Below, in pieces: positions 8,201 through 50,680 of a stretch of DNA of 64,000 nt (the first letter of the stretch is position 1; each line of letters begins with the position of its first letter). The notes under the pieces were generated by a model that saw only the letters and a list, made by a program, of their open reading frames with translations, was not told the DNA's origin and ran no database searches. A program made the translations under genes and the position numbers. Origin of the DNA: Oscillospiraceae bacterium (GTDB taxonomy: Bacteria > Bacillota > Clostridia > Oscillospirales > Ruminococcaceae); the NCBI GenBank assembly GCA_009784825.1, contig WQXO01000003.1, positions 1 through 64,000 on the forward strand, given 5' to 3'.

Positions 8201-9345
8201 AAACAAACACAAGAAAAACCGCTTATGAGCTTCTTAGAAAAATGGAAAAAGGTGCATATTCATCCCTAATTCTCAACAACGAATTAAAAAAGCAAAGCCT
8301 TGATGAACGTGACAAAGCGTTCACAACCATGCTGTTTTACGGGGTTATTGAACGCCGTATAACCTTAGATTATATAATCGCAAGCTTCACTAAAACCAAG
8401 CCCGAGCAGGATATAGCCGTTCTTTTAAGAATGGGCTTGTACCAAATTATATACATGGATTCCGTTCCGGAAAGTGCTGCAGTGCATGAAACCGTCGAGC
8501 TTTCCCCGAAACGAGCGAAATCGTTCGTTAATGCGGTTTTGCGAAACTTTTTGCGAAAAAACACGGACTGCTATACAGGGGAGAATTGTGTTCTCCCGTT
8601 ATGGATAAAATATTCCTGCCCCGAATGGTTGGTTAAAAAATGGCAGGAGGAATATGGCGAGCAGGCGACTTTACAGATTTTAGAAACGAGCCTGTTACCG
8701 CCTCCGCAATTTGTTGTTACAGGGAAAAATCATGTAGGGGAGAACTGTGTTCTCCCGCCCACACAATACACACAAGATTTATCCTCACAACAAGCCTGCG
8801 AATTATTGAACCCGCAGCCCGGCGAAACAGTTATAGACTTATGTGCAGCACCCGGCGGGAAGAGCTTTACCATTGCGGGATTAATGAACAATACCGGGCG
8901 AATTATAAGCTGCGACATTCACGAAAAGAAGCTTAAGCTGATTGAACAGGGTGCAACCCGCCTCGGAATAAGTATAATCGAGGTTCATAAAAACGATGCA
9001 CGGGTTTACAATCCCGACTTTCCGAAAGCCGACAGGGTGTTATGCGATGTACCATGTTCGGGATTAGGCGTAATTAGGCGAAAGCCCGAAATTAAATACA
9101 AGCCCGAAGCCGACTTTATTCGCCTGCCGGAAATACAGGGCGAAATTCTGCAAACCGGCTCACGCTACGTAAAAGACAAAGGTGTGCTAATGTATTCAAC
9201 CTGCACGTTAAGCAAGCGTGAAAATGACGACGTAATCGAAAACTTTCTGAAAAACAACAGGTTTGATTTATCGGAAAAACGAACGGTTATCCCGAGCGAG
9301 GACGGCGGCGACGGATTTTTCACAGCGGTTATGGTGAGAAAATGA
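8197..9345 (+). CDS. rsmB: 16S rRNA m5C967 methyltransferase RsmB, with two repeat-derived insertions
   Basis: 382 aa. An N-terminal NusB-like RNA-binding domain (to ~140) precedes a SAM methyltransferase domain with VIDLCAAPGGKSF, the motif IV cysteine region CDVPCSGLGVIRR and the motif VI cysteine region STCTLSKREN. The ATG at 8197 overlaps the previous stop (ATGA). A longer reading frame upstream exists, but the family N-terminus TRKTAYELL lies just after 8197. Residues ~127-134 (TGENCVLP) and ~180-187 (VGENCVLP) are encoded by family A palindromes at 8575 and 8734. Both fall in or near linkers away from the active-site motifs. Confidence 0.95.
   Translation: MKTNTRKTAYELLRKMEKGAYSSLILNNELKKQSLDERDKAFTTMLFYGVIERRITLDYIIASFTKTKPEQDIAVLLRMGLYQIIYMDSVPESAAVHETVELSPKRAKSFVNAVLRNFLRKNTDCYTGENCVLPLWIKYSCPEWLVKKWQEEYGEQATLQILETSLLPPPQFVVTGKNHVGENCVLPPTQYTQDLSSQQACELLNPQPGETVIDLCAAPGGKSFTIAGLMNNTGRIISCDIHEKKLKLIEQGATRLGISIIEVHKNDARVYNPDFPKADRVLCDVPCSGLGVIRRKPEIKYKPEADFIRLPEIQGEILQTGSRYVKDKGVLMYSTCTLSKRENDDVIENFLKNNRFDLSEKRTVIPSEDGGDGFFTAVMVRK
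8575..8598 (+). repeat. Family A palindrome in rsmB, copy 1
   Basis: ACAGGGGAGAATTGTGTTCT then CCCG, arms GGGAGAA and TTCTCCC. The start GTA has become ACA. It is read in frame 1 as TGENCVLP. Confidence 0.85.
8734..8757 (+). repeat. Family A palindrome in rsmB, copy 2
   Basis: GTAGGGGAGAACTGTGTTCT then CCCG. Read in frame 1 as VGENCVLP. It is 159 nt from copy 1 in the same gene and nearly identical to it. Confidence 0.9.
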
Positions 9346-10367
9346 TTGACATTTTATCTTTAAACCTCGACGAATTAAAGCAAGAATTGGCACAATTCGG
9401 CGAACCCGCTTATCGGGCGAAACAGATTTACGAATGGCTTCACATAAGAAAAATATCGGATTTTGACGAAATTACTAATATTTCTAAACAATTACGAGAA
9501 AAATTAAGAGAAAAGTTTTGTATAAAATCACTAAATATGCAAAAAAGACTTGTATCAAGCATAGATGATACGGTAAAATATCTATATATGCTTGACGACG
9601 GCAATTGCATTGAAACGGTTTTTATGTCGCACAACCACGGGAATTCATTATGTATATCCTCGCAGGTTGGTTGCAGAATGGGCTGCAGGTTCTGTATGTC
9701 AGCACAATGCGGCTTTGTCCGAAATCTTACACCAAGCGAAATGCTCCTACAAATATACCGAGCCGAAAAAGAGATAAACAGCGTTGTCGTCATGGGAATT
9801 GGCGAACCGTTAGATAACTTCGACAATGTGAAAAAGTTTTTAGAAATTCTACCGATGAGCTTACGGCATGTGTCACTTTCCACCTGCGGACTTGCAGACG
9901 AAATAGACGAACTTGCTAAGTTAAAATTAGGCTTAACGCTTTCAATCTCGCTCCACGCAACCAACGACAAAGACAGAACGGCGATTATGCCCATTAACGC
10001 ACGATATAACTTAGAACGCCTGTTAAGCTCATGTGCGAATTATTTCACAATTACCCGCCGCAGAATAAGCTATGAGTATGCATTAATTGATGGAGTTAAT
10101 GACACTGAGGAAAATGCATACGAACTTGCGAAACTGCTGAAAAAGTTACCAAAGGGTTCATACCATGTTAATATTATTCCCATAAACCCTGTAGGGGCGA
10201 ACTGCGTTCGCCCGCCTGACACAAAACAAATCAAAACCTTTTCCACCGTTCTTGAAAGAGAAAACATAAACGTCACCGTAAGAAGAACCTTAGGTGCAGA
10301 CATAAACGCCGCTTGCGGGCAATTACGTAGGGGGGAACTGTGTTCTCCCGATAAAAAGGAATTATAA
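9342..10367 (+). CDS. rlmN: Dual-specificity rRNA/tRNA adenine C2-methyltransferase RlmN
   Basis: 341 aa. Radical SAM enzyme that makes m2A2503 in 23S rRNA and m2A37 in some tRNAs. It has the cluster motif CRMGCRFCMSA (residues ~110-120), GIGEPLDNFDNV, SISLHATND, and the second catalytic Cys near the end in INAACGQLR. The start overlaps the rsmB stop (ATGA). One family A copy encodes internal residues ~284-291 (VGANCVRP). A second, read in a different frame, supplies most of the C-terminal tail (RRGELCSP) beyond the catalytic Cys. Catalytic residues are untouched. Confidence 0.96.
   Translation: MIDILSLNLDELKQELAQFGEPAYRAKQIYEWLHIRKISDFDEITNISKQLREKLREKFCIKSLNMQKRLVSSIDDTVKYLYMLDDGNCIETVFMSHNHGNSLCISSQVGCRMGCRFCMSAQCGFVRNLTPSEMLLQIYRAEKEINSVVVMGIGEPLDNFDNVKKFLEILPMSLRHVSLSTCGLADEIDELAKLKLGLTLSISLHATNDKDRTAIMPINARYNLERLLSSCANYFTITRRRISYEYALIDGVNDTEENAYELAKLLKKLPKGSYHVNIIPINPVGANCVRPPDTKQIKTFSTVLERENINVTVRRTLGADINAACGQLRRGELCSPDKKEL
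10191..10214 (+). repeat. Family A palindrome inside rlmN
   Basis: GTAGGGGCGAACTGCGTTCG then CCCG, perfect arms GGGCGAAC/GTTCGCCC apart from a 2-nt loop. Frame 1 gives VGANCVRP. Confidence 0.9.
10327..10350 (+). repeat. Family A palindrome at the rlmN 3' end
   Basis: GTAGGGGGGAACTGTGTTCT then CCCG. Read in frame 3 (AGG GGG GAA CTG) as RGELCSP, forming the enzyme's last residues. Confidence 0.9.
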
Positions 10368-10370
10368 ATT

Positions 10371-11108
10371 ATGCTGGTTTATTCTAAAACAGACATAGGG
10401 AAAAAGCGTTCAGAAAACCAAGACCGTGTTTGGACAGATGTTTTGAACGAGGGCAGTGACGAAGCTGTTGCGGTCATAGTATGTGACGGCATGGGCGGTG
10501 AAAATGCGGGAAGTCTTGCGAGCCAGATGACGGTTGACTTCATGGCGGACAGGTTTAAGCGTGGCTTCCGTGACGATATTAACCGAAATTCCATTCGCAA
10601 TCTTATGATAACCTCGGTGATTGCGGCGAACTCATTAGTTTATGACGAATCAATTTCTGACTCAAGCAAGCACGGTATGGGAACAACCTGTGTAGCCGCA
10701 ATCGTACATAACGAGCGGGCATATATAATCAACGTGGGAGACAGTCGGGCGTATCATATATTCGACGACAACATTCAACAGATTACCAAAGACCACACAT
10801 ATATAAGGACACTTATAGATGAGGGCAGGATTACCGAGGAGGAGAGCAAACGCCACCCAGACAGGAACGCAATAACACGTGCAATCGGTGCAGAGGGGAA
10901 CGTCACACCCGATTATTTCGAGTTAGACTTACAGGAAAAAAGCATAATGCTTCTCTGCTCAGACGGGCTTCACTCATACGGTGACGATATAAAAATCGCT
11001 GAAATCATCGTGAACAATCCCAAGAACAAGGTTTGCGAGCTTTTGGTGAATTATGCAATAAAAAACGGCGGACGTGACAACATCACAGCGGCATTAATTG
11101 TACTGTAG
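10371..11108 (+). CDS. stp: PP2C-type serine/threonine phosphatase
   Basis: 245 aa. Stp/PrpC-type phosphatase that reverses PrkC phosphorylation. Metal-binding motifs are visible: RSENQDRVW near the start, VCDGMGGENAGSLAS (~39-53), INVGDSRAYH (~120) and LCSDGLHSY (~195). GGRDNITAALIVL closes the fold. AAGGAATT precedes the ATG. The TAG stop (11106-11108) lies inside a family A repeat that begins at 11105, so the repeat sets the C-terminus. prkC follows. Confidence 0.95.
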   Translation: MLVYSKTDIGKKRSENQDRVWTDVLNEGSDEAVAVIVCDGMGGENAGSLASQMTVDFMADRFKRGFRDDINRNSIRNLMITSVIAANSLVYDESISDSSKHGMGTTCVAAIVHNERAYIINVGDSRAYHIFDDNIQQITKDHTYIRTLIDEGRITEEESKRHPDRNAITRAIGAEGNVTPDYFELDLQEKSIMLLCSDGLHSYGDDIKIAEIIVNNPKNKVCELLVNYAIKNGGRDNITAALIVL

Positions 11109-11128
11109 GGGCGAACTGCGTTCGCCCG
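11105..11128 (+). repeat. Family A palindrome supplying the stp stop codon
   Basis: GTAGGGGCGAACTGCGTTCG then CCCG. Identical in sequence to the copy inside rlmN at 10191. Here stp reads it in frame 2, where the second base onward is TAG. Confidence 0.92.
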
Positions 11129-11186
11129 TTGAAACAAAACGTAAGGATTTAGAGGAATACTGTGCACGAAAGGGTTGAATTTATCT

Positions 11187-13319
11187 ATGGATAACTACAT
11201 CGGCGTAAAACTTGACGGGAGATACGAGCTTCTTGAACTCATCGGCTCAGGCGGCATGGCAGAAATCTACAGAGCTGATGACACAGCTGAGGACAGGACT
11301 GTTGCGGTAAAAATTCTCAAAAACGAATTCGCAGGCAGTGAGGACTTCCTCCGCAGATTCCGCAACGAGTCGAAAGCAATCGCACTCTTATCACACCCGA
11401 ACATTGTCAAAATCTTTGACGTGGGCTTCACCGAAAGCGTGCAGTTCATCGTCATGGAGTACATTGACGGTATAACACTCACCGAGTATATCGAAAAGCA
11501 AGGCGTCCTCAAATGGAGAGAGGCGTTGGGTTTCGTTCAGCAGATTTTGAAAGCTCTCCAGCACGCCCACGACCGAGGAATAGTCCACCGTGACGTAAAG
11601 TCACAGAACGTCATGCTTCTGCCGGACGGTGCGATAAAGGTGATGGACTTTGGGATTGCACGGTTCAATCGAGAAATCGACAAAACCATATCCGAAAAAG
11701 CAATCGGCTCTGTCCACTATATCAGCCCCGAACAAGCACGGGGAGACGTTACCGACGAGAGGAGCGACCTTTATTCGGTGGGGATTATGCTATACGAAAT
11801 GCTGACCGGCGTTAAACCGTTTGACGGGGATGACGCATTGGCAATTGCGTTAATGCATACCAACAAAAACCCGAAACGTCCCGCAGAAATCAATTCATCT
11901 ATCCCCGAAGGGTTAGAGGAAATTACACTTCGTGCAATGCAGAAGGAGCCTCCCAAGCGTTACCAGACAGCCGGCGAAATGGTGAGCGATTTACGGGAAT
12001 TTGAGCGTAACCCCAGTGTTGTGTTCGACTATAAATATTTCACACCTGACGGAAACACAAAACATTTCAACAAGGTGGGGAAAGCAGTTCCGCCTCCCGC
12101 ACCTGTTCCCCAGCAAAAGAAAGCACCTGTTGCCGTCACCGTGGCATACGATGATGACGACGATGAAGAATATGATGATGATGAAATCATCGAAAGGCGT
12201 TCGCCTCTACTGCCTATTTTATTCGCAGTAGCCTCGGTGTTTGTTATTCTTGCGGCATGGTTGATTTATATGATTGTCGGAAACATCACCGACCCGAGCG
12301 GCAGAGGGCCGGACGGGCCGATAAGACCCGGCAGTGACATTCAAATGCCTAATCTCGTGTCAATGTCTTATGTAGAAGCAATCGACTTATACGGTGACAG
12401 GATTATATTTGACCCGTCAGAGGAATACTCCTCAGAATACCCGAAAGGTATAATCATGGAGCAGGAATACGTGGCAGGAAGAAACATAAAAGTGAATTCC
12501 ACCGTAAAAATCGTTGTAAGCAAGGGAAAGAACGTGGTATACGTCCCCGACTACGCTTTGACGGGACCGCACCATTCGGTCAGTGTAGAGCAGGAATTGA
12601 AAAACGCAGGCTTGATTGTAAGAATGTCGTTTATTGAAAGTGAAACAGTCCCCAAGGAATACGTCATTCGGACAGACCCGCCCGCCGGCTCACAATTAGA
12701 AAAAGGCGACCCGATTACAATTATTGTCAGCTTAGGGGCACCGGAATCCGATATAACAAATGTCCCCGATATGCTGGGATTGAATATAACCAGTGCAAGG
12801 GTTCGTGCAGACGAATACAGAATCGAACTCATAGAAATCTATGAAGAAAGCTCCGAGGAAGACAGGGGTAAGGTTCTCAGTCAAAGCATAGTACCGTTTG
12901 AGGAAGTGCCGAACTGGACAGAGGTTGAAGTAGTTATAGGCAGCGGACCTCCCGCAACCAGAAAATCCAATATTACGTTTACTGTAGCAGACAGATGGAC
13001 AGGGGATTACACCTTCCTTTGGTATGTTGAGGGAGCACCCGTCGGCTCTATGAAGCAAAATGTTGAGATAAAAAAGGAAGTTAAATGGGAGTTTGAGGAC
13101 GAGGGATTAAAGCTGTATTCTATCAGAATAAGATGCGAGGCGACGGGCGAGGAAGCGTTGTTCTGCACCTATGAAATCGACTTTACCAAAGAAACACCTA
13201 CTAAACGAGAGGTATATCTCGACATGGGTGTGTTCAGTAAAATCAGCACCCCCGGAGGCGGCACAACTGCTACCTCCACTGCCGAAAGCAGCGAACCCGA
13301 ATCACCTGCCGATGAGTAA
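11187..13319 (+). CDS. prkC: Serine/threonine protein kinase with PASTA domains
   Basis: ~710 aa membrane kinase that senses muropeptides or lipid II in Firmicutes. Kinase domain to ~270: glycine loop GSGGMAEIY (20-28), catalytic HRDVKSQN (~134) and DFGIAR (~154). A proline- and acid-rich juxtamembrane region (AYDDDDDEEYDDDEI) precedes one membrane helix (ILFAVASVFVILAAWLIY, ~343-360). About three PASTA repeats cover ~385-590, and a C-terminal extracellular domain of unknown type ends in a Ser/Thr-rich tail. The ATG at 11187 is preferred to an in-frame TTG at 11175 that abuts the GAAAGGG site. It overlaps rsgA by 8 nt. Confidence 0.95.
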   Translation: MDNYIGVKLDGRYELLELIGSGGMAEIYRADDTAEDRTVAVKILKNEFAGSEDFLRRFRNESKAIALLSHPNIVKIFDVGFTESVQFIVMEYIDGITLTEYIEKQGVLKWREALGFVQQILKALQHAHDRGIVHRDVKSQNVMLLPDGAIKVMDFGIARFNREIDKTISEKAIGSVHYISPEQARGDVTDERSDLYSVGIMLYEMLTGVKPFDGDDALAIALMHTNKNPKRPAEINSSIPEGLEEITLRAMQKEPPKRYQTAGEMVSDLREFERNPSVVFDYKYFTPDGNTKHFNKVGKAVPPPAPVPQQKKAPVAVTVAYDDDDDEEYDDDEIIERRSPLLPILFAVASVFVILAAWLIYMIVGNITDPSGRGPDGPIRPGSDIQMPNLVSMSYVEAIDLYGDRIIFDPSEEYSSEYPKGIIMEQEYVAGRNIKVNSTVKIVVSKGKNVVYVPDYALTGPHHSVSVEQELKNAGLIVRMSFIESETVPKEYVIRTDPPAGSQLEKGDPITIIVSLGAPESDITNVPDMLGLNITSARVRADEYRIELIEIYEESSEEDRGKVLSQSIVPFEEVPNWTEVEVVIGSGPPATRKSNITFTVADRWTGDYTFLWYVEGAPVGSMKQNVEIKKEVKWEFEDEGLKLYSIRIRCEATGEEALFCTYEIDFTKETPTKREVYLDMGVFSKISTPGGGTTATSTAESSEPESPADE

Positions 13320-16875: not shown

Positions 16876-18459
16876 TTAAACTGCTGCTACTTTTTTATCA
16901 ATGGAATTCTTAATCGAGCGTGACACGATTGCAACAACCATAATCAGCACTCCGCCGCCGACCGTAATCGCTCCCGTCGCCAAAATAGTATTGTTCATTC
17001 CGGTGAGAATTCCCCCGATAAACGATTCGTCCAATTCGATTAATCCGCTGAGCGATGAATTAATAATCGCATACACACTGCTTGACATTGCTCCGGCAAT
17101 AACCACGCTTAACCCCGAAAGAATACAGGATATACCGCAGTATATTAAAGCGGTGGATTTTCTGCGATGAATAATAACAATCACAGCCATAAGCACAACA
17201 ACAACCGAAATAATTACAATCAGCGTTACAGGTGAGAAGATTCTGCGAACCCCGCTAAGGTCAATCGGCATAGGAACATCATCAATTATATCGTCCCATG
17301 TTAATTCCTTAAGCGTGTCTCTCAGCACGTCTTGAATATCGTCTAAATCCTCAGTTTTTATTCTGTAACCGGTAATGTCCTCTATCTCATCAGTGTTATT
17401 CTCGATGAACTTTACTAATTCACGTGCATCGATAATCTGCCCGTCGCCCTGCCCCGTCAATAAGTAATTAATGTTATCATAAAGCAGTTCACCGATATAT
17501 TCATTGATTAAATCGCTCTGTAATAAATCTTCAATATTTTCCTTTGAAATGTCGAATGTTTCAATATAATAATCGTCGATTACCATAAATATCGCTTCCG
17601 ACAAAATCTCACCGCCGCCTAAATCAACATCGGGAATAGGCAGTGGGAGTTTCATATCGGTGAAGTCAATACCGTCAACCATCGCTTGAATGGTTGACGG
17701 ATTATTTACCACCATTCGCATAATCACGCTTACCTGAAGCACCGTTACGCCGGAAATCAAAATAAGCGATAACAACACCGAAACTAATGCAATAAGAATC
17801 TTCTTCCCGATTGATTGAGGGGGCTTGACTTTCTTCGCCCCTTGAACTTCGGGAGCTTCTGCGACTATGTTGTTGATTATTATTTCACCTGCCGCCGATT
17901 GCTCTACTGTGGGAGGGGTTTGTGAAAATGTTTCCGGTTCAGCAAATACAGTAGCCGCAGCCACTGGCTGGTTTGCCGCCTGCGGCGGTTCTGCTGCTAC
18001 AACAGGCTCTTCAACTACAGGAACAGGTTCGGGTTTTTGTTCCACAGGAGCGGGGACTTCTTTTTCAATAATTACAGTTTCTTTAATGGTTTCGGTCTGC
18101 GTGATAATTATCGGCTCTGCAGCAGCCACAGCCACGGGTTGTTCTGCCACAGGCTCTTCAACTACCGCAACAGGCTCTTCGATTACAGGAACTGCCTCTT
18201 CAATTACAGGAACAGCCTCTTCAATTACAGGAACAGCCTCTTCGATAATTTCAATCGGTTCTTCTACTACTGCGACAGGTTCTTCAACTACCGGAACAGC
18301 CTCTTCGATAATTTCAATTGGCTCTTCAATAACCTCTACCGCTTCTTCAACAACCTCTACCGGCTCGAAAGCCTCGGGGAGTGCCGCACCACATTCGGTG
18401 CAGAACATAAGGTCGCCTGCCACCTGCGTACTGCATTGTGTACAAAATTTGTTTTCCAT
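16876..18459 (-). CDS. Zinc-ribbon membrane protein with Val/Glu/Pro repeats
   Basis: 527 aa. The start MENKFCTQC begins a double-CxxC zinc ribbon (FCTQC...FCTECG, residues 5-25). About 125 residues of low-complexity repeats follow (units like EEAVPVI and EEPVAVV). Then come one membrane helix (ILIALVSVLLSLILISGVTV), an acidic, probably extracytoplasmic domain, and three or four C-terminal helices. AGAGGA nine bases before the ATG at 18459 decides the start. Function unknown. The plus strand opposite the repeats gives long Ser/Thr/Gly-rich frames that are artefacts. Confidence 0.85.
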   Translation of the reverse strand: MENKFCTQCSTQVAGDLMFCTECGAALPEAFEPVEVVEEAVEVIEEPIEIIEEAVPVVEEPVAVVEEPIEIIEEAVPVIEEAVPVIEEAVPVIEEPVAVVEEPVAEQPVAVAAAEPIIITQTETIKETVIIEKEVPAPVEQKPEPVPVVEEPVVAAEPPQAANQPVAAATVFAEPETFSQTPPTVEQSAAGEIIINNIVAEAPEVQGAKKVKPPQSIGKKILIALVSVLLSLILISGVTVLQVSVIMRMVVNNPSTIQAMVDGIDFTDMKLPLPIPDVDLGGGEILSEAIFMVIDDYYIETFDISKENIEDLLQSDLINEYIGELLYDNINYLLTGQGDGQIIDARELVKFIENNTDEIEDITGYRIKTEDLDDIQDVLRDTLKELTWDDIIDDVPMPIDLSGVRRIFSPVTLIVIISVVVVLMAVIVIIHRRKSTALIYCGISCILSGLSVVIAGAMSSSVYAIINSSLSGLIELDESFIGGILTGMNNTILATGAITVGGGVLIMVVAIVSRSIKNSIDKKVAAV

Positions 18460-19526: not shown

Positions 19527-19670
19527 TGGTGACAAACCACCCCCCGGCTTCGCCGTACCCCTCCACAGAGGGGAATTGTGTGCGATTAATCCCCCGTAAA
19601 TTCCCCTCCGTGTGAGGTCTTCCCTTTCTGCGGAAAGGGGTGCCCGTAGGGCGGGGTGGTTACAAACACA
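19527..19670. repeat. Family C repeat, downstream of the DUF559 gene
   Basis: Composite unit: GGTGACAAACCACC, a GGCTTCGCC palindrome, CCCCTCCACAGAGGGG, CTTTCTGCGGAAAG and the end GCCCGTAGGGCGGGGTGGTT. Several local hairpins are visible. Shares CCCGTAGGGCGGGGTGG with the copies at 20068 and 31684. Confidence 0.85.
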
Positions 19671-19672
19671 AT

Positions 19673-20056
19673 CTAAATCGGGTTTTGTAAAGCAGAGTGT
19701 TCGTTCAACATTTTCATGACTCTATTCAAATCATTCAAGACATCTTTTGCCGACACATGAATAACAGTCAACCCTAAATTTTCAAGAAAAGAATTGCGGT
19801 CGCCATCGTATATTTCCTTATTATCGTGGGAACTTCCATCTATTTCAATCACAACTGAGCAATCAACACAATAAAAATCAACAATATAATTACCTATTAT
19901 TTTTTGGCGGTCAAAGTCATATCCCTTAAATTTCTTCTTATGAAATTGTTTCCACATTAAAACCTCGCTTAAATTACCTGCTTTACGCAGTTCTCTTGCT
20001 CGCTCACGTAAATTTGGATTAAACGGAAGATTGCTGTAACTCTCTATATTACGCAT
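19673..20056 (-). CDS. DUF559 endonuclease-domain protein
   Basis: 127 aa, the full length of the DUF559 family (Vsr/restriction-endonuclease-like fold). Conserved pieces are PNLRERARELRK near the start, FDRQKIIGNYIVDFYCVD (~50-67) and VVIEIDGSSHDN (~70-81), with the acidic and Gln/Lys residues of the nuclease core. GGAGGCGTA precedes the ATG. It is bracketed on both sides by family C repeats (19527-19670 and 20068-20170), forming a cassette between pgsA's operon and rimO. A nuclease-driven mobile cassette is a plausible reading (inference). Confidence 0.88.
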   Translation of the reverse strand: MRNIESYSNLPFNPNLRERARELRKAGNLSEVLMWKQFHKKKFKGYDFDRQKIIGNYIVDFYCVDCSVVIEIDGSSHDNKEIYDGDRNSFLENLGLTVIHVSAKDVLNDLNRVMKMLNEHSALQNPI

Positions 20057-20067
20057 TACGCCTCCAT

Positions 20068-20170
20068 AATTCCCCTCCGTGGAGGGGTGCCCGTAGGGCG
20101 GGGTGGTTTCTCCGTGTGAGGTCTTCCCTTTCTGCGGAAAGGGGTGCCCATAGGGCGGGGTGGTTATAAC
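20068..20170. repeat. Family C repeat, upstream of the DUF559 gene
   Basis: Two units in tandem: CCCCTCCGTGGAGGGG with GCCCGTAGGGCGGGGTGG, then CTTTCTGCGGAAAGGGGTGC with CCATAGGGCGGGGTGG. The array ends two bases from the rimO stop codon. Confidence 0.88.
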
Positions 20171-29986: not shown

Positions 29987-31240
29987 ATGAACACTTACGA
30001 CTTAATTATAATCGGCGGAGGTGCGGCGGGGGTATTCGCATCACTTAATTCAAAGCACAAGCGAATTCTCATAATCGAACGCAACACCTCCCTTATGAAA
30101 AAGCTCATGATTACGGGGAAAGGCAGGTGCAACCTCACTAATAACTGTGACGTTGAAACGGTTCTTCTTAATATCCCGAGGAATTCTGCGTTTATGCGGG
30201 GTGCATTGTCCCGCTTTACCCCTCATGACACGATTGCTTTTTTTGAAGAAATTGGTGTCCCGCTCAAAACCGAACGTGGTGGGCGGGTTTTTCCAATTTC
30301 CGACAAAAGCGGGGACGTTGTTAATGCATTAAAAAAACATCTCAACGCCGAAATCGTTACAGACCGTGCGAGGGAACTTATAATCGAGAGCGTTCCTGTA
30401 GGGGCGACCTGCGGTCGCCCGCAAATGGTTACGGGAGTGAAATGCGAAACCGCCACCTACTACTCTAAAAACGTCCTAATTTCAACAGGGGGCATGTCCT
30501 ACCCTAAGACCGGCTCAACCGGCGACGGTTACGAAATGGCACGAAAGGTCGGTCACAGCATTACACCGCTGAAACCCTCGCTTATCCCGCTGGAAACCGT
30601 CGAGGACTGCAGCTCCGTAATGGGGCTGTCACTCAAAAACGTCCGTTTAACACTTCTGAAAAACAACAAGGCGGTATTCTCCGAGCAAGGCGAAATGTTG
30701 TTTACCCACTTCGGCGTATCTGGACCCCTTGTACTCAGTGCAAGCTCGTATATCAGCGAACTGTCAACTATCCATTATCAACTGTCAATTGACTTCAAGC
30801 CCGCCCTTGACGAGAAAAAACTCGACACACGTATACTGCGGGATTTTAACGAAAACAAAAACAAGCAGTTCAAAAACTCGCTTAACGCATTATTACCCGA
30901 AAAGCTGATTGAATTATTTATAACACGTTCAAAAATCCCGCCCGACAAGCGGGTTAACGAGATTACCCGACAGGAACGTGAACGCCTCATATCACTGTTC
31001 AAGGATTTTCGATTGACCGTAAAATCATTCCGCCCGATTGAGGAGGCAGTCATAACCGATGGCGGTATTTCGGTCAAGGAAATCGACCCGAAAACCATGC
31101 AGTCGAAATTGGTGAAAGGGCTGTACTTCGCGGGGGAAATCATCGACGTTACAGGGTTTACGGGCGGGTTTAATCTGCAAATCGCTTTTTCAACCGCATA
31201 CACAGCTATATCATCGATTGACTTTTCACTTAACCCGTGA
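29987..31240 (+). CDS. HI0933-type NAD(P)/FAD-dependent oxidoreductase with two repeat insertions
   Basis: 417 aa. FAD-binding LIIIGGGAAGVFAS at the start, VLISTGGMSYPKTGSTGDGY in the middle and the C-terminal VTGFTGGFNLQIAFSTAYTA fit the HI0933/BaiN-like flavoprotein family. Substrate unknown. Residues ~138-145 (VGATCGRP) derive from a family A palindrome, and ~258-269 (LSTIHYQLSIDF) from a family B array, so both families sit in frame in one gene. Probably translated from a leaderless transcript. Confidence 0.93.
   Translation: MNTYDLIIIGGGAAGVFASLNSKHKRILIIERNTSLMKKLMITGKGRCNLTNNCDVETVLLNIPRNSAFMRGALSRFTPHDTIAFFEEIGVPLKTERGGRVFPISDKSGDVVNALKKHLNAEIVTDRARELIIESVPVGATCGRPQMVTGVKCETATYYSKNVLISTGGMSYPKTGSTGDGYEMARKVGHSITPLKPSLIPLETVEDCSSVMGLSLKNVRLTLLKNNKAVFSEQGEMLFTHFGVSGPLVLSASSYISELSTIHYQLSIDFKPALDEKKLDTRILRDFNENKNKQFKNSLNALLPEKLIELFITRSKIPPDKRVNEITRQERERLISLFKDFRLTVKSFRPIEEAVITDGGISVKEIDPKTMQSKLVKGLYFAGEIIDVTGFTGGFNLQIAFSTAYTAISSIDFSLNP
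30398..30421 (+). repeat. Family A palindrome in the HI0933-type gene
   Basis: GTAGGGGCGACCTGCGGTCG then CCCG, arms GGGCGACC/GGTCGCCC. Frame 1, VGATCGRP. Confidence 0.9.
30759..30793 (+). repeat. Family B array in the HI0933-type gene
   Basis: AACTGTCAACTATCCATTAT then CAACTGTCAATTGAC. Same orientation on the coding strand as the copy in scfB, and encodes a related peptide (LSTIHYQL here, LSTVHCQL there). Confidence 0.8.
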
Positions 31241-31683: not shown

Positions 31684-31819
31684 CAAAACCACCCCGCCCT
31701 ACGGGCACCCCTCCAAAGAGGGGAATTGCCCGCTTCAAGACGGAAAGATGGTTTTTCGTTTGCAACCTGTCATCCCCTCCGTGGAGGGGTGGATGCGAAG
31801 CGGACGGGGTGGTTTTGGA
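31684..31819. repeat. Family C repeat between the HIT gene and comEC
   Basis: Begins CCAAAACCACCCCGCCCTAC with GGGCACCCCTCCAAAGAGGGG, then a less conserved stretch, then TTGCAACCTGTCATCCCCTC, CGTGGAGGGG and GGACGGGGTGGTTTTGG. The ends are inverted copies of each other (CCAAAACCACCCCG / CGGGGTGGTTTTGG). Short open frames across it look non-coding. Confidence 0.88.
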
Positions 31820-36555: not shown

Positions 36556-36579
36556 GTAGGGGCGACCTGTGGTCGCCCG
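36556..36579 (+). repeat. Family A palindrome, left half of an inverted pair
   Basis: GTAGGGGCGACCTGTGGTCG then CCCG, 5 nt after the MBOAT stop. Confidence 0.9.
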
Positions 36580-36606: not shown

Positions 36607-36630
36607 CGGGCGACCGCAGGTCGCCCCTAC
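36607..36630 (-). repeat. Family A palindrome, right half of an inverted pair
   Basis: CGGGCGACCGCAGGTCGCCC then CTAC, opposite orientation to the copy at 36556 and 27 nt away. This is BIME-like, as in REP systems. The GAGGT ribosome binding site of the DHHW gene abuts it. Confidence 0.9.
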
Positions 36631-44706: not shown

Positions 44707-44730
44707 GTAGGGGCGAACTGCGTTCGCCCG
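44707..44730 (+). repeat. Family A palindrome before leuB, forward copy
   Basis: GTAGGGGCGAACTGCGTTCG then CCCG, 7 nt past the methyltransferase stop. Confidence 0.9.
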
Positions 44731-44822: not shown

Positions 44823-45905
44823 ATGGACAAAAGAATAACCGTCATCAAAGGTGACGGAGTTGGTGGGGAAATAGTTGTTGAGGCGGTTAAAGTCATCGAC
44901 AAAATCGCAAGGAAATACGGGCATGTTATGTCGTATAATTATCAGCTTATGGGAGGGGCGGCACTCGACGAGTATGGAATTCCGCTGCCTATGGAAACCA
45001 TTGACGCATGTCGGGAAAGTGACGCTGTTTTATTAGGGGGAGTGGGCGACCCTAAGTGGGATTTCAGCCCGCAGCATTTACGCCCGAAAACGGGGCTTTT
45101 GAACCTTAGAATGTCGTTAGGTTTGTTTGCGAATATTCGCCCTGTTAAGCTTCACCCTGCATTGATTTCGGCGTGCCCTTTGAAAAATAGCGAGCAGAAA
45201 ATCGACATGATTATCGTTCGGGAATTAACCTCCGGAATATACTTCGGGGAGCGTAGGACGTTTACCGATGAGGAGGGGTATAAAACCGCATACGACACCA
45301 TGAAATATAACGATTATGAGATTTCAAGGGTGGCACGGTTGGCGTTAGAGCTGGGGCGGAAGCGTGGTAAAGGGGTCATCAGCATTGATAAGGCGAATGC
45401 CTTAGACAGTTCAAAATTATGGCGTGAAATCATTCAACAGGTGAGGGGTTCGGACTATCTCGATGTGCCTTTATATGATTTATTGGTGGAAGCGGTTACA
45501 GAGTTAATCCGTGACCCGTCACAGTTTGACGTTGTTGTTGCTGAAAACCTTTTCGGCGATATATTATCTAACGGAGCGGGTATATTGACAGGGTCACCGG
45601 GAATGTTACCGTCTGCAAGCTTGGGCAGCTCGGGGTTCGGCTTGTATGAGCCTGTTCACGGGTCTTTACCTGATATTGCGGGACGTGATGTTGCTAATCC
45701 GCTTGCTATGATTTTGTCGGCGGCTTTAATGATGAGGCTGTCACTTTCGATGGTTGATGAAGCCGCTAATATAGAGGACGCTGTTGAACGGGTTCTCAAG
45801 CGTGGGTATAGGACGGCGGATATTGTGTGTAAGGAAGAGTTAAACGATTCGATAACCGTAGTCGGGTGTAAGATGATGGGGGATTTAGTGGCGAGTGAGA
45901 TATGA
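44823..45905 (+). CDS. leuB: 3-isopropylmalate dehydrogenase
   Basis: 360 aa. Oxidises 3-isopropylmalate and, in the citramalate route, probably 3-methylmalate. ITVIKGDGVGGEIV at the start, LRMSLGLFANIRPVKLHP, EAVTELIRDPSQFDVVVAENLFGDILSNGAG and EPVHGSLPDIAG are the family motifs. AAGGAGTGGCAGA precedes the ATG. Overlaps the RAYT gene by four bases. Confidence 0.96.
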   Translation: MDKRITVIKGDGVGGEIVVEAVKVIDKIARKYGHVMSYNYQLMGGAALDEYGIPLPMETIDACRESDAVLLGGVGDPKWDFSPQHLRPKTGLLNLRMSLGLFANIRPVKLHPALISACPLKNSEQKIDMIIVRELTSGIYFGERRTFTDEEGYKTAYDTMKYNDYEISRVARLALELGRKRGKGVISIDKANALDSSKLWREIIQQVRGSDYLDVPLYDLLVEAVTELIRDPSQFDVVVAENLFGDILSNGAGILTGSPGMLPSASLGSSGFGLYEPVHGSLPDIAGRDVANPLAMILSAALMMRLSLSMVDEAANIEDAVERVLKRGYRTADIVCKEELNDSITVVGCKMMGDLVASEI

Positions 45906-46432
45906 GAGATGAACTGACAAAAAGAAAAATCATCCGATTACAAGGGTATGATTATTCATCAGAGGGAATGTATTTTATAACAATATGTTCTATAAAAAGA
46001 TTACCTTTGTTTGGTGAATTCGTAGGGGCGGACGACCCTGTCCGCCCAAAAGATGAACCATACATTAAAATGACAGAAATTGGTAAAATTATACATGATT
46101 GCTGGGATACAGTTAATTCTGTTTATGCAAATGTAAAAACTGATGCATTTTGTGTAATGCCAAATCACATTCACGGAATAATAACTATTGAAAGCATAGG
46201 TTTGTCGGGCGGACAGGGTCTGCTTTCGGGCGGACAGGGTCGTCCGCCCCTACATAAGGTGGTGCAAGGTTTTAAATCTGTGACAACAAGAATGTGTTTT
46301 GATATGGGATTTCAAAAAATATGGCAGCGTTCATACCATGACCGCATTATTAGAAACGAACAAGAATATATAAAAATATGGAATTATATTAATGATAATC
46401 CCAAAAACTGGTTGCAGGATTGTTATTATTAA
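45902..46432 (+). CDS. REP-associated tyrosine transposase (RAYT, Y1 family) carrying family A repeats
   Basis: 176 aa. Y1_Tnp-like single-strand transposase: RLQGYDYSSEGMYFITIC at the start, the HUH motif in CVMPNHIHGIITI (~residues 79-91), and the C-terminal helix NEQEYIKIWNYINDNPKNW with the candidate catalytic Tyr. In RAYT systems this enzyme acts on REP palindromes. Two family A copies lie in frame within it: residues ~41-49 (VGADDPVRP) and ~102-118 (SGGQGLLSGGQGRPPL). No terminal repeats flank the gene, and it starts within the leuB stop, so it looks domesticated or freshly inserted. Confidence 0.9.
   Translation: MRDELTKRKIIRLQGYDYSSEGMYFITICSIKRLPLFGEFVGADDPVRPKDEPYIKMTEIGKIIHDCWDTVNSVYANVKTDAFCVMPNHIHGIITIESIGLSGGQGLLSGGQGRPPLHKVVQGFKSVTTRMCFDMGFQKIWQRSYHDRIIRNEQEYIKIWNYINDNPKNWLQDCYY
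46022..46047 (+). repeat. Family A palindrome inside the RAYT, copy 1
   Basis: GTAGGGGCGGACGACCCTGT then CCGCCC, arms GGGCGGAC/GTCCGCCC. Frame 1. Confidence 0.9.
46206..46253 (-). repeat. Family A palindrome inside the RAYT, copy 2 (one and a half units)
   Basis: CGGGCGGACAGGGTCTGCTT leads into CGGGCGGACAGGGTCGTCCG and CCCCTAC. The full unit is inverted relative to copy 1, with an extra partial left arm. All three frames are open in this orientation. Confidence 0.9.
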
Positions 46433-46438: not shown

Positions 46439-47221
46439 TTAAAAATCACACCAGAGGTCGTCGGGTAATTCTGTGTCGTCAGCGAATATGTTCGGGTTCT
46501 TTTTTAAACAGTGGGTGACTAAGTCTGCCATTTTCACCGCATCTGCGAGAATGCTGTGGGCGTTACCGATTTTTACATATTTCGCTGCACCTTTTTCAAT
46601 AAACGCAACCTCCATTTTACCGTAGTTTTGCGATATATCACCATCGGCGAAATAATGGCGGTGCTGGGGACAGGGGAGCAGACCTTGTTCGGTTTTTATG
46701 AAAAGCTCCTGCGGTTCAGTACCCAAACGATTGGGAATCTTATTCCATTCCTCGACACCGTGAATAAACGTGTTGCGAATTAACTCGCAACCCAAGAAAA
46801 GAATTTGTGCATTTCGGTCATATAACTTACCGTAACAACCGTTCCTCGAACAAGGGGAGCGGCTTTGTTCTTCCCCGCTTGTGTAGTCCCGTGCGTCCTT
46901 TCCGATTGCCGCAACAGAATGTGTCGGGTGAAGCGAACGAATTACATTATCACGCTTCATGAATATATTTGTGAGAATTCCCACACAGGACGGGGTCGTC
47001 ATCGGGTCGTAGGTATTGTTGTTTTCGCCGACGTTTCTCCATGTGTGGGTCGGGAAAATCAGCAGACCGTCTCTCATAAATTCGATGAACGCATCGAGAA
47101 CCGTGTCGGCACGGTTTTCACATTCGCCTATGCTTTTCATGGAGGAATGAACGTGCAGAGTTCCGGTGGGGTTTATGCCGCTTTTTTGTAAGTCGGCGAT
47201 TAGGGTTTCTTTAGTGTGCAT
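46439..47221 (-). CDS. AAC(3)-family aminoglycoside N-acetyltransferase-like protein
   Basis: 260 aa. AAC(3)/YokD-type fold motifs: LHVHSSMKSIGECENRADTV near the start, LLIFPTHTWRN, LHPTHSVAAIGKDA (~102-115) and a late YFADGDISQNYG. AAAGGATTATATA precedes the ATG at 47221. Chromosomal members of this family often have no shown resistance role, so the family is all I claim. Minus strand, with trmL 24 nt upstream. Confidence 0.88.
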   Translation of the reverse strand: MHTKETLIADLQKSGINPTGTLHVHSSMKSIGECENRADTVLDAFIEFMRDGLLIFPTHTWRNVGENNNTYDPMTTPSCVGILTNIFMKRDNVIRSLHPTHSVAAIGKDARDYTSGEEQSRSPCSRNGCYGKLYDRNAQILFLGCELIRNTFIHGVEEWNKIPNRLGTEPQELFIKTEQGLLPCPQHRHYFADGDISQNYGKMEVAFIEKGAAKYVKIGNAHSILADAVKMADLVTHCLKKNPNIFADDTELPDDLWCDF

Positions 47222-47244
47222 TATATAATCCTTTCGGTGTTTAA

Positions 47245-47718
47245 TTATTCTAATTCGGGGAAGTTCCATTGCCTAAGTGTTTCGTAGACACCGACGGCGA
47301 CACTATTAGACATATTAAGGCTCCTAAGTCCCGCCTGCATTGGAATTCTGACGTAGCTGTTTTTATATTTTTGGAATAGCTCTTTTGGTAGACCCGTGTC
47401 CTCCCGTCCGAAAATTAAGCAGGTATTATCCTCGTATTCCACCTCGGTGTAGTTACGTTCTGCGTAGGTTTCAAAAAAGAATAATTCGCCGTTAATTCTG
47501 CTGAAAAAATCATCGAAGCTTTCGTAAACCGTTACGTTTAATTTGTCCCAGTAATCTAATCCCGCACGTTTCATTTTCCTGTCGTCAATCGTGAAGCCTA
47601 ACGGTTTTATCAAATGCAGCCTTGCACCGGTGGCGGCACAGGTGCGGGCGACGTTTCCGGTGTTTTGGGGAATTTGCGGCTGGGCTAAAACAATATTGAG
47701 GGTCATTATGTTTGACAT
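47245..47718 (-). CDS. trmL: tRNA (cytidine(34)-2'-O)-methyltransferase, TrmL-like
   Basis: 157 aa SpoU-family enzyme, the small single-domain form. Knot motifs: PQNTGNVARTCAATGARLHL, LIFGREDTGLP and IPMQAGLRSLNMSNSVAVGVYE. The start is uncertain between ATG at 47718 and ATG at 47706 (MTLNIVLAQPQIP), where the family N-terminus begins. Neither has a strong ribosome binding site. Divergent from yebC. Confidence 0.93.
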   Translation of the reverse strand: MSNIMTLNIVLAQPQIPQNTGNVARTCAATGARLHLIKPLGFTIDDRKMKRAGLDYWDKLNVTVYESFDDFFSRINGELFFFETYAERNYTEVEYEDNTCLIFGREDTGLPKELFQKYKNSYVRIPMQAGLRSLNMSNSVAVGVYETLRQWNFPELE

Positions 47719-47740
47719 TCTTTCTGTAAAATGATATAAT
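47712..47740 (+). promoter_or_regulatory. Consensus sigma-A promoter of yebC
   Basis: TTGACA (47712-47717), 17 nt, TATAAT (47735-47740): a perfect consensus. Confidence 0.85.
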
Positions 47741-47771
47741 GGTTATTAGATTATTATGGGGGGCAGAGAAT

Positions 47772-48503
47772 ATGGCGGGTCATTCAAAATGGAGCACGAT
47801 TAAAAGGAAAAAAGGCGAGAAAGACGGGGCGAGGGCGAAGGTCTTCACTAAAATATCACGTGAGGTTTTAGTATGTATTCGGGAGACCGGCAGTGCTGAC
47901 CCCGCTAATAATTCACGGCTTAAGGATTTAATCGCTAAAGCAAAAGCGAACAACATTCCGAATGAAAATATTGAGCGATTGCTTAAAAAAGCACAGGGCG
48001 GGGATGAGAAAAACGATTATGAAAACTGCCTGTACGAGGGGTATGGGATTGGCGGAGTTGCTGTTATGGTGAGCTGTCTTACCGATAATCGCAATCGCAC
48101 GGCAGGGGAAATTCGGCATTATTTCGATAAGTATGGCGGAAACCTCGGTACAGCGGGTTGTGTGGCGTTTATGTTTTCGGAAAAAGGGATTGTTATTATT
48201 GAAAAAAATGAAAAAACAACGTCTGAAACTAATACGCTTGAGGACGACATAATTGAATCGGGTGCGGTTGATTTTACCGAGTTCGATGATTATGTAGAAA
48301 TAGAAACCGAGCCTAATGATTTAAGGCAGGTCAGCGAGTATATGCAAGAAAGGAATTATAAAATTCTTTCTGCTGAAATTGAAATGATACCGTCTACTTA
48401 TACCACATTAACCGATGAAGAGCAAGTAAAAAAAATGACGATACTTTTAGAAATGTTGGAGGATAATGATGACGTTCAAAATGTATGGAATAATTGGGAA
48501 TGA
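47772..48503 (+). CDS. YebC/PmpR family transcriptional regulator or translation factor
   Basis: 243 aa, family length. Starts MAGHSKWSTIKRKKGEKD, the invariant family N-terminus, which sets the ATG at 47772. Other landmarks are IPNENIERLLKKAQG, LTDNRNRTAGEIRH and GTAGCVAFMF. YebC proteins bind DNA as regulators, and some help ribosomes through proline stretches. Single-gene unit with a consensus promoter. Confidence 0.96.
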   Translation: MAGHSKWSTIKRKKGEKDGARAKVFTKISREVLVCIRETGSADPANNSRLKDLIAKAKANNIPNENIERLLKKAQGGDEKNDYENCLYEGYGIGGVAVMVSCLTDNRNRTAGEIRHYFDKYGGNLGTAGCVAFMFSEKGIVIIEKNEKTTSETNTLEDDIIESGAVDFTEFDDYVEIETEPNDLRQVSEYMQERNYKILSAEIEMIPSTYTTLTDEEQVKKMTILLEMLEDNDDVQNVWNNWE

Positions 48504-48523
48504 TTATTTATATTTATACATTG

Positions 48524-48547
48524 CGGGCGAACACAGTTCGCCCCTAC
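48524..48547 (-). repeat. Family A palindrome supplying the mreB stop codon
   Basis: Minus strand GTAGGGGCGAACTGTGTTCG then CCCG. The TAG at 48546-48544 ends mreB. It also fills the convergent gap between yebC and mreB. Confidence 0.92.
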
Positions 48548-49560
48548 TTGTATTTGTACATTGATACTTTTTCAAAGCCGTCTAATAATTCGTCGGCAAA
48601 GTCAAACGCTTTTGCGACACCGTGAGCGACACATTCAATCGGGTTGTCCGCTAAACGGCAGGAAGCCCCCGTGTGCCATGCAATAAGCTTGTCTAAGCCT
48701 TTGAGCATTGCACCGCCTCCGGTAAGGATTATCCCTGTTTCGAGAATGTCACCCGCTAATTCGGGGGGAGTGGATTCAAAAACGGATTTAATTTTGTTGA
48801 CCACGTCCATCGCCGAATCGATTAACGCCTCATGCATATCAACCTCAGATATTTCTAAGCTTTGCGGTAAGCCTTTTACAACATTTCTGCCTTTTAGAAT
48901 CATTAATTTATCGCTGTCGGGTTCAAAAACATTACCGACGGTTTTTTTTGCGGTTTCGGCAGTTTTTTCGCCGATTAGGATTTTTTCTTTTTGCAGAAAA
49001 TGTTTAATTACCGCAGAGTCAAACTTGGTGCCTGCCATTTTTAAAGATGTCGCTTTTACAATTCCGTTAAAGGATATTACCGCAATGTCGGCAGTTCCGC
49101 CGCCTATGTCAACCACCATTGTGCCGGTCGGTTTTTTTATGTCTACCCCTGCCCCGATTAGTGCGGCAATCGGCTCTTTTATCAGGAATACTTTCCTCGC
49201 ACCTGCCGCTAACGCCGCATCAACAACAGCACGGTTTTCCACGTCTGTAACAGCACTCGGAACGCATATGATAATCTGCGGTTTTATCATAAGGTTTCGG
49301 CTGGCTTTTCTGATAAATTCCTTGAGCATTAACAGGGTCATGTCACGGTCGGAGATTACGCCGTCTTTCAGTGGGCGGACTGCGACGATGTATTCCGGGG
49401 TTCTGCCAATCATTTTATACGCATCACGCCCCACTGCCATGACTTCCTGCTTCTTCTTGTTGTAAGCCACGACGGTAGGTTCGTTTATTATGATTTTTCT
49501 GCCCATTGTTATTATGATGTTAGCCGTACCCAAATCAATTCCAATGTCCATTGATGACAT
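48544..49560 (-). CDS. mreB: Rod-shape-determining actin homolog MreB/Mbl
   Basis: 338 aa. Actin-like ATPase: phosphate-1 GIDLGTANIII at the start, phosphate-2 VVDIGGGTADIAVI (~residues 150), adenosine motif ILTGGGAMLKGLDKLI. AGGGAGA nine bases upstream supports MSSMDIG over the next ATG. The start overlaps the CCA gene by 26 nt. The stop codon belongs to a family A repeat. No mreCD is adjacent, so this may be an Mbl/MreBH-like copy (inference). Confidence 0.94.
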   Translation of the reverse strand: MSSMDIGIDLGTANIIITMGRKIIINEPTVVAYNKKKQEVMAVGRDAYKMIGRTPEYIVAVRPLKDGVISDRDMTLLMLKEFIRKASRNLMIKPQIIICVPSAVTDVENRAVVDAALAAGARKVFLIKEPIAALIGAGVDIKKPTGTMVVDIGGGTADIAVISFNGIVKATSLKMAGTKFDSAVIKHFLQKEKILIGEKTAETAKKTVGNVFEPDSDKLMILKGRNVVKGLPQSLEISEVDMHEALIDSAMDVVNKIKSVFESTPPELAGDILETGIILTGGGAMLKGLDKLIAWHTGASCRLADNPIECVAHGVAKAFDFADELLDGFEKVSMYKYK

Positions 49561-50680
49561 ATAATAATTTCTCCCTGTCGTTTTCGCATTTTTCGTTAAT
49601 TACCATTTGCAGTAATTCATTTAATTTTTCGCCGATTTCCCGCCCTTTGTAGCCTAATTCGACTAAGTCGCCGCCTTTTATATTGAGTTGTTTCAGTGAA
49701 TAGCATTCGCCGTTTTCTATGATTGATTTTGCGATTTCAATTGTTTTATTCGGGGCAGGCGGGACGCCCGGGTGTGCGTCCCCTACATTGCGTTCTGCCA
49801 ATCGAAAAAACATTTCTTCCCCGAATTTATTCAGCAGTGTTTTGATGTTTATTTTGTCGGGTTCGATAATTAAATCGTGGTGTTTTATAAGTGTGATTAC
49901 CTTATAAAAAGTGTCGTTGTCGTATTTAAGCTTTCGCAGAATTCTTCGAGTTTTTTCTTCATTATAATTCAAATCCAGAAAAAACAAAGCGAGGGAATCG
50001 ACTTTGTCTTTCTTAAAATGAGCGGTGACGATTTTATTTAATTCCTGTGCAATTCTTTCCCCTGAAATATTGTGGATTAGGTGTCGCAGTTCTTCGGCGG
50101 CTTTGGCAGTTTCGGGTTCAATCGAAAACCCATATACTGCGGAAAAACGATATGCACGAATTATCCTGAGTGCATCTTCGTTAAAGCGTTTGTGCGGGTC
50201 GCCCACTGCACGAATTGTTTTATTCTGCAAGTCTTCTTGTCCGTTGAAATAGTCGATAATTCCCGTTTTTTCGGAATACGCCATTGCGTTAATCGTGAAG
50301 TCACGGCGGCTTAAATCGTCTTTGAGATTACGGGTAAATTCAACCGTGTCGGGACGGCGATTGTCGGTGTAGTCCCCGTCTATTCTAAAGGTGGTAACCT
50401 CAACCGGGGTTACGGGCGAGTTTTCGGGCGGACAGGGTCGTCCGCCCCTACAGGCGGGGGACATTACCGTGATTGTACCGTGTTTCAATCCCGTGTCATG
50501 GGTGGAGAATTCGGCGAACACCTGCTTCATTTCGGCGGGGGTGGCAGAGGTGGTTATATCGTAGTCAGCAGGTTCTAATCCTAAGAGCATGTCACGGACA
50601 CAACCGCCTACGGCATAGGCTTCATGCCCTGCCGATTGTAATAGATTTATTATGTTTTTAACGTAATCCGGGAGATTCAT
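49535..50680 (-). CDS. cca: CCA-adding tRNA nucleotidyltransferase with two repeat insertions
   Basis: 381 aa. Class II nucleotidyltransferase: YAVGGCVRDMLLG (residues ~20-32), the metal DxD in PADYDITTSA, RRDFTINAMAYS and the RNA-binding RIIRAYRFSAVYGF. An HD-like middle region has been partly lost. Residues ~77-86 (CRGGRPCPPE) and ~299-307 (VGDAHPGVP) are family A palindromes read in frames 3 and 1. The first lies in a loop between head-domain motifs. It would finish tRNAs and the tmRNA here, whose CCA is not encoded. Confidence 0.94.
   Translation of the reverse strand: MNLPDYVKNIINLLQSAGHEAYAVGGCVRDMLLGLEPADYDITTSATPAEMKQVFAEFSTHDTGLKHGTITVMSPACRGGRPCPPENSPVTPVEVTTFRIDGDYTDNRRPDTVEFTRNLKDDLSRRDFTINAMAYSEKTGIIDYFNGQEDLQNKTIRAVGDPHKRFNEDALRIIRAYRFSAVYGFSIEPETAKAAEELRHLIHNISGERIAQELNKIVTAHFKKDKVDSLALFFLDLNYNEEKTRRILRKLKYDNDTFYKVITLIKHHDLIIEPDKINIKTLLNKFGEEMFFRLAERNVGDAHPGVPPAPNKTIEIAKSIIENGECYSLKQLNIKGGDLVELGYKGREIGEKLNELLQMVINEKCENDREKLLYVINGHWN
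49760..49786 (-). repeat. Family A palindrome in cca, 3' copy
   Basis: Minus strand GTAGGGGACGCACACCCGGG then CGTCCCG, arms GGGACG/CGTCCC. The same sequence occurs at 54701-54727. Confidence 0.9.
50425..50451 (-). repeat. Family A palindrome in cca, 5' copy
   Basis: Minus strand GTAGGGGCGGACGACCCTGT then CCGCCCG. Same sequence type as the RAYT copy at 46022. Read in frame 3. Confidence 0.9.

Follow-up and report, generated by a model that had tools for sequence, protein, structure and literature searches.

The first 64,000 nucleotides (nt) of contig WQXO01000003.1 from an Oscillospiraceae bacterium (assembly GCA_009784825.1; this whole stretch is called the window below) raise the question of how a short palindrome comes to lie, in frame, within conserved protein-coding genes. 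A first-pass annotation had listed nine such palindromes, in rsmB, rlmN, a gene for an HI0933-like flavoprotein, a gene for a REP-associated tyrosine transposase (RAYT) and cca; all nine are present and all are in frame. Our analysis suggests that they are repetitive extragenic palindromes (REPs) of the GTAG superfamily, moved by the RAYT (TnpA-REP, HUH-tyrosine), often by exchange with a segment of the target, a reading to which we assign a probability of roughly 0.78. Movement of the REPs by the RAYT is well supported; the exchange step is a still unproven reading of the length data.

Anatomy and copy number of the palindromes

Each repeat unit forms a hairpin whose foot is the tetranucleotide GTAG and whose stem spans 8-9 base pairs (bp). 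The palindromes had been described as a single family of about 24 nt, a description that we revise: the A1 form is 24 nt long (GTAG, an 8-bp stem, in its commonest form GGGCGAAC/GTTCGCCC, a TGY loop and a final G), the A2 form is 27 nt long with a longer stem and loop, and the second copy in cca (49761-49786, minus strand) is a third stem variant, of which an identical copy lies at 54702-54727, also on the minus strand. Single-strand folding exceeded that of shuffled sequences in all four sequences tested (z of -4.0 to -5.2). In the window, GTAGGGGCG with at most one mismatch is matched 28 times against a shuffle mean of 8.3, with none of 100 shuffles reaching 28, and a longer pattern with at most three mismatches is matched 20 times against 2.2 expected, though on inspection some of the 20 do not look like elements.

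The palindromes had also been proposed to be a new kind of element, but their anatomy is that of GTAG REPs. A GTAG foot under a stem-loop of 5-13 bp, numerous dispersed copies with head-to-head dimers and the association with a RAYT gene, all typical of the GTAG REP superfamily, are found here; mostly intergenic placement, which is common in the superfamily and not required, is not, as 52 of 92 hairpins are genic. The 2013 paper on the superfamily lists intragenic units as a feature, and mainly genic placement therefore does not exclude membership. The CGTC foot of the Rickettsia palindromic elements is absent, the foot here being GTAG. A palindrome class unrelated to REPs was considered and rejected, given the GTAG foot and the RAYT link. 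An Rfam scan of the window matched only a tmRNA, and no Rfam family covered the palindromes.

Copy numbers in the genome are lower bounds: the exact A1 pattern has 44 copies, a looser A1 pattern has 72 matches, a few of them overlapping, and a covariance model finds at least 66 copies with 150 of 451 candidate sites scored. A scan for A1 and A2 over the window and 42 fetched stretches, themselves picked around matches, gave 76 copies, most of which are singlets. With the exact A1 pattern, five inverted pairs are seen genome-wide, with start-to-start distances of 46-52 nt. A1 with identical letters is also present in two other genomes, G020 and G004.

The RAYT and the flanks of the REPs

The RAYT gene (45902-46432, plus strand) holds two A2 REPs, one at site 1 (46022-46048, plus strand; peptide VGADDPVRP) and one in antisense at site 2 (46227-46253, minus strand; peptide SGGQGRPPLH). 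Its open reading frame (ORF) matches Y1_Tnp with 21.9 bits, just under the curated cut-off of 23. The structure model of the protein, with a mean predicted local distance difference test score (pLDDT) of 82.6, has its best PDB match in 4er8, the structure of a RAYT in complex with a REP hairpin; besides this fold, the HUH motif, the conserved WQ and the Tyr followed by NP that characterize a RAYT are all present. This is the one full RAYT gene of the genome. Partial matches are found on contigs C25 (L063/L106, G000 C25:1-544) and C15 (L064, at its end) and may be two pieces parted by contig ends. Both have PPVCPQ-type tandem peptides at site 1, and the one on C25 carries an A1 REP at site 2.

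RAYT matches were found in 11 of 71 genomes of the genus. Among 40 genus genomes tested for both, all eight with a RAYT also have A1-like REPs, as against three of the 32 without one (Fisher 2e-6). Searching plasmids for relatives of the RAYT yielded four records.

Among 55 A1 copies, the dinucleotide CT adjoins the 5' end in 13 (p 1.3e-6) and the 3' end in 14 (p 1.8e-7), against a background of 4.7%, in a test that excluded three A2 copies from an array of lipoprotein-like genes and five copies with more than four mismatches. A pyrimidine precedes GTAG in 51 and follows the final G in 50 of the 55 copies, and G is adjacent to none of them on either side. The 13 A2 copies have a pyrimidine on the 5' side in all 13 and on the 3' side in six. 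Characterized RAYTs are reported to cleave at CT, and one also at CA (PMC8266576). The CT enrichment on both sides of A1 fits two-sided cutting.

Net length of the host proteins

Simple insertion of a 24-nt element would be expected to lengthen a host protein by eight residues. Net lengths were read by eye, from ortholog alignments or from the best two to four PDB alignments shown per search, out of 3 to 112 matches. FabD has no gap across the REP and a net change of 0 (four PDB alignments), and Sua5 gains 0 to one residue at the REP (three). TlyA is longer by one residue than all 29 aligned genus orthologs and also by one in three PDB alignments. MutS gains one residue at the REP, or loses one when a neighbouring gap is counted (two alignments), NadC gains three (four) and QueA is shorter by one to three residues in all three of its alignments. 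The first copy in rlmN (10191-10214, plus strand; peptide VGANCVRP) gives +1 against the closest relative, G010, and mostly +2, with a range of 0 to +3, over 29 same-genus orthologs. At the first copy in rsmB (8575-8598, plus strand; A1-like, with the foot decayed to ACAG and the peptide TGENCVLP) the length is within about three residues of that of relatives.

Clean insertion of 8-10 residues had been the original expectation. As a general rule this was tested by alignment and does not hold generally, since ortholog alignments often show missing host residues; host residues thus appear, from these alignments, to be missing at the REP often and not always. It had also been allowed that orthologs might have the same residues at these places, which would have made the similarity between genes a matter of chance; within the genus, the orthologs of rlmN, rsmB and cca are without them. 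A named-organism search found no close strain among the best 80 of 194 loci, the relatives being at most 62% identical; the top ones are labelled uncultured Clostridia, Oscillospiraceae or Ruminococcaceae.

The mechanisms by which REPs disseminate have been termed poorly understood (PMC8266576). In the mechanism that we envisage, the RAYT would fold the single-stranded REP hairpin, recognize its GTAG foot and cut at adjacent CT dinucleotides, as published for other RAYTs. A single-stranded segment of the target would then be exchanged for the REP, or the REP would be inserted with simultaneous loss of target. Copies that bring a TAG in frame, or that break the frame or the fold, would be purged, and the surviving copies would be those in loops, at C-termini or supplying a stop. 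Within the RAYT ORF, two fixed sites carry the REP in opposite orientations, by which the gene may travel with its substrate; autoregulation via the hairpins is an alternative role for the pair.

An inverted REP pair within the RAYT gene

We compared 40 RAYT loci from the genus and the order, of which the 29 order-level loci are the best-scoring among matches in 86 of 394 genomes and hence biased toward likeness to the window RAYT; eight fragmentary loci (L064, L195, L196, L198-L202) were omitted from the two-site comparison. A sense REP lies near residue 41 in 34 loci, in one phase in 32 of these 34, and an antisense REP follows the HUH strand and precedes the next helix in 33; both sites are occupied, in opposite orientations, in 31 of the 40. 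The two REP copies differ on average by 1.6 letters within a gene as against 8.3 between genes, and none of 20,000 permutations gave a value as low. The stems at these sites vary by paired changes, an observation that leans toward pairing as the scans require a stem and the 12 and 18 sequences used were picked by length. In the structure model site 1 falls in the least certain block (residues 41-50, pLDDT 48), and site 2 runs from within the other low block (residues 101-110, pLDDT 52) to the next helix.

In 32 RAYT ORFs (16.3 kb; L248, L256 and L260 of 35 ORFs were omitted) there are 61 hairpins, with two or more in 29 ORFs and about none in shuffled ORFs. The flanks of RAYT ORFs (90.9 kb) have 22 hairpins, of which a single cluster at L249 accounts for most. 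The idea that the REPs chiefly flank the gene was therefore rejected for this RAYT type. On comparison of these genes, the presence of two REPs is a conserved feature of this RAYT type and not chance. L249 (G219) itself is unlike the other RAYT loci in that REPs and inverted REPs alternate in a cluster around the gene.

Two of the internal REPs were searched for in genomes. With at most two mismatches, the one within the G020 RAYT has 62 copies in G020; 19 other genomes have 0 to 5 apiece. The one from G389 has 23 copies there (at most three mismatches) and none in 26 genomes; variants of it occur in G311 (40), G398 (8) and G040 (one), and the G398 variant is the REP inside that genome's own RAYT (L252). 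The internal REP is not the sole abundant family in G020, because at least 150 A1-type matches are found there without an A1-bearing RAYT having been seen. Dense clusters of at least five REP-like hairpin families, including the GTAGGGAACGGTT family, are also seen in G020 (L292-L311).

Reading frames and host genes

The claim that the repeat family enters conserved genes in frame is borne out, as 48 of the 76 A1 and A2 copies lie wholly inside a best ORF of at least 100 amino acids (aa). Their frames are 20, 6 and 0 in sense and 1, 7 and 14 in antisense. The coding logic first proposed stands in that the sense frame 2, which reads TAG, is unused inside genes. That all reverse frames are open holds for the sequence, but one antisense frame is almost unused, and the single copy in it sits in a doubtful ORF of 130 aa. 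In the sense frame that reads TAG, five copies supply the stop of an ORF. About eight of the 48 genic copies were judged spurious or N-terminal leaders (C1 198000, C2 202268, C3 36607, C6 16019, C6 115695, C6 127022, C6 127364 and C8 65181), and the copy in FtsW is likewise N-terminal. Five of the 48 stem from one array of related lipoprotein-like genes. This array, L066 (G000 C1:145206-148088), is a row of related Thr-rich genes, each with A2-like REPs near the N-terminus and one with two, and its REPs are likely one event multiplied by gene duplication.

Hosts named by NCBIfam are MutS, Lon, a P-type ATPase, HisZ (two copies), ThiI, PcrA, Sua5, MnmG (an inverted pair), DnaX, QueA, FabD, TlyA, NadC and a HAD hydrolase (a C-terminal copy); in MurB and FtsW the REP lies only ahead of the matched domain. 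The matches of PcrA, HisZ and FtsW are under the curated cut-off, and the scan gave no match for four of the 20 proteins examined. RNA-modifying enzymes (QueA, TlyA, MnmG, ThiI) are thus among the hosts, but the addition of Cys-containing loops to such enzymes is not supported as the main point: MutS, DnaX, Lon, FabD and NadC are hosts too, and Cys in the encoded peptides is confined to some frames.

The remaining copies in the window illustrate the same range of positions. Within genes, A1 copies lie on the plus strand in rsmB (8734-8757, the second copy there; peptide VGENCVLP), at the C-terminus of rlmN (10327-10350; peptide RRGELCSPD) and in the HI0933-like flavoprotein gene (30398-30421; peptide VGATCGRP). 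In cca, the first copy is an A2 REP on the minus strand (50425-50451; peptide CRGGRPCPPE), and the peptide of the second lies within VGDAHPGVPPAP. Further copies were found beyond the nine originally listed. The A1 REP at 11105-11128 (plus strand) supplies with its GTAG the TAG stop of the ORF at 10371-11108, whose product we take to resemble a PPM-type phosphatase, and the one at 48524-48547 (minus strand) does the same for an MreB-like gene. An intergenic inverted pair, REPIN-like, consists of A1 copies at 36556-36579 (plus strand) and 36607-36630 (minus strand), the latter upstream of the likely ATG of a DHHW-family gene, and a single intergenic A1 copy lies at 44707-44730 (plus strand), downstream of a methyltransferase-like gene.

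With one generic scanner applied throughout, 52 of 92 hairpins of this genome lie in ORFs of at least 150 aa, some of them doubtful, as against 13 of 92 in stretches of G020, where the ORFs are by eye mostly odd and repeat-rich, none of 17 in G004 and three of nine in four more genomes that share A1. The genic share differs between this genome and G020 plus G004 (Fisher 2e-11); the 20 stretches of G020, two of which overlap by about 300 bases, and the 11 of G004 were taken from listed A1 matches. The element alone does not account for this genic placement.

Three other observations were made in the window. A separate repeat family, AGGGGTGCCCGTAGGGCGGGGTGGTT, has several copies in both orientations at 19636-20165 and 31687-31712. 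The region 18003-18382 has 21-nt tandem repeats within an ORF, in units of seven residues. Finally, a large part of the segment linking the PP motif to QDxSSQ is missing from rsmB (8095-9345), as it is from the counterparts in G006 and G003.

Alternative explanations

Several results weigh against REP movement by the RAYT with frequent exchange of target sequence. Net lengths change at some hosts: cca gains 14 residues at its first copy against 26 of 29 relatives and 11 or 12 against the other three, and has a net loss of six at its second against 28 of 29, one row being incomplete; DnaX gains seven, the inverted pair in MnmG about 20 and the HI0933-like gene about three to seven, and the second copy in rsmB, located where most of the genus has sequence that G006 and G003 both lack, gives +14 against these two. 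Relatives are only about 60% identical, so that an exact empty site was unseen, and insertion followed by compensating deletion may have occurred. The scans detect intact copies and miss degraded ones. CT follows two of 13 A2 copies, which is no excess. As to the RAYT, the three genomes with A1 REPs and no RAYT have few copies (at most four matches), the one RAYT match of G020 carries another REP despite the abundance of A1 there, and no A1-bearing RAYT was seen in that genome. Nine of the 40 RAYT loci are without one or both REP sites (in L192 the only REPs are near site 2, and L253 and L260 have none at either), the REPs at the two sites of L191 do not resemble each other, and the 40-copy G311 variant is unlike the REP in L233, the one G311 RAYT examined. 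The genome search for internal REPs covers two REPs only.

One rival is plain insertion of a 24- or 27-nt REP, after which selected deletion of neighbouring residues restores the length of the loop. It accounts directly for the clear gains at the first cca copy, in DnaX and in MnmG, and with only intact elements detected two-step and one-step cases are indistinguishable; we regard it as a serious contender at somewhat less than even odds. Little net change is, however, also seen in copies at or near the exact consensus (NadC and Sua5 with no mismatch, TlyA with one), which look young, and the TlyA loop is uniform in length across all 29 genus orthologs aligned, so that a matching deletion that spared the REP would be needed. 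That the hairpin has no mobility of its own, having spread by template switching or gene conversion with the RAYT as a bystander, would suit HisZ, where two REPs seem by eye, unaligned, to bracket retained host sequence, and the abundance of A1 in G020; we hold it very improbable in view of the co-occurrence of RAYT and REP, the CT flanks and the multi-copy state of the internal REPs in both genomes tested.

The pair inside the RAYT gene might also be a chance build-up of insertions in tolerant loops. Site 1 and the start of site 2 do fall in the blocks of low certainty in the model, and Quentin 2018 (PMC6006769), as far as the text was seen, regards such REPs as insertions. This explanation is nonetheless an unlikely one, as the sites are fixed, with opposite orientations in 31 of 40 loci, the copies match within genes and site 1 keeps its phase in 32 of 34, and 61 hairpins lie inside the ORFs, compared with 22 in flanking DNA of over five times that length. 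Movement of the REPs by the RAYT with frequent exchange remains the reading we prefer. A more complete version of it, in which this RAYT lineage carries out REP segment exchange (two CT-like cuts and a swap of similar length that keeps frame and length) and stores its own REP as an inverted pair in two protein loops, kept alike by overwriting, is offered tentatively, and we consider it doubtful.

A genome with REPs in dozens of genes offers many before-and-after comparisons, in which lost residues are visible in protein alignments, and a mobile element is here seen to write short peptides into housekeeping enzymes. If exchange is true, such an element can overwrite conserved coding DNA with frame and length unshifted. 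The matched internal pair may reveal from the gene alone which REP a RAYT serves, which would make the pairing of RAYTs with REPs testable at scale.

Comparison with known systems

GTAG REPs were defined, with intragenic units and stop codon donation, by Di Nocera 2013 (PMC3733652). They share with the palindromes described here the GTAG foot, the short stem-loop, head-to-head pairs, the association with RAYTs, the donation of TAG stops and in-frame copies, there in uvr, rec, polymerase and pseudouridine synthase genes among others. They are mostly intergenic, in contrast to the 52 of 92 hairpins within ORFs here. Replacement of target sequence by REPs finds no mention in the part of that paper seen, nor in the parts seen of the other literature.

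The likeness to Rickettsia palindromic elements noted by the first-pass annotation is apt, in that these too are in-frame palindromes within conserved genes: the intragenic repeats of R. conorii correspond to RPE-4 and RPE-6 and are counted in the sister CGTC class (PMC3733652). They differ in the greater length of RPE-1 and in this class assignment; the palindromes of the present genome have GTAG as their foot and are accompanied by a RAYT. With REPINs (PMC3116915) our elements share inverted REP pairs, here 46-52 nt apart from start to start; singlets are expected to be immobile in that system, whereas they make up the majority of our 76 copies.

The closest likeness of the transposase is to subclass 2.4 of TnpA-REP, in whose genes in-frame REPs generally lie between HuH and Y (Quentin 2018, PMC6006769). 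The window RAYT shares this placement and the NH[IFV]H and WQ motifs of the subclass; its Y motif is YINDNP versus the tabled YIxNNP. That paper treats internal REPs as insertions, variable in length and sequence, and describes REPs in the flanks, whereas we find a matched inverted pair at two fixed sites and few REPs in the flanks. It also reports an insertion of eight aa at the end of alpha B and, in the text seen, does not name it as a REP. GTAG REPs within genes (Di Nocera 2013) and REPs within the gene of their own transposase (Quentin 2018) are thus already in print. Relative to the literature as seen, what appears to be new is that the REPs of one lineage lie so heavily in genes, that residues of the target are lost, and that a RAYT gene has a matched pair at two sites, with a multi-copy counterpart in the genome.

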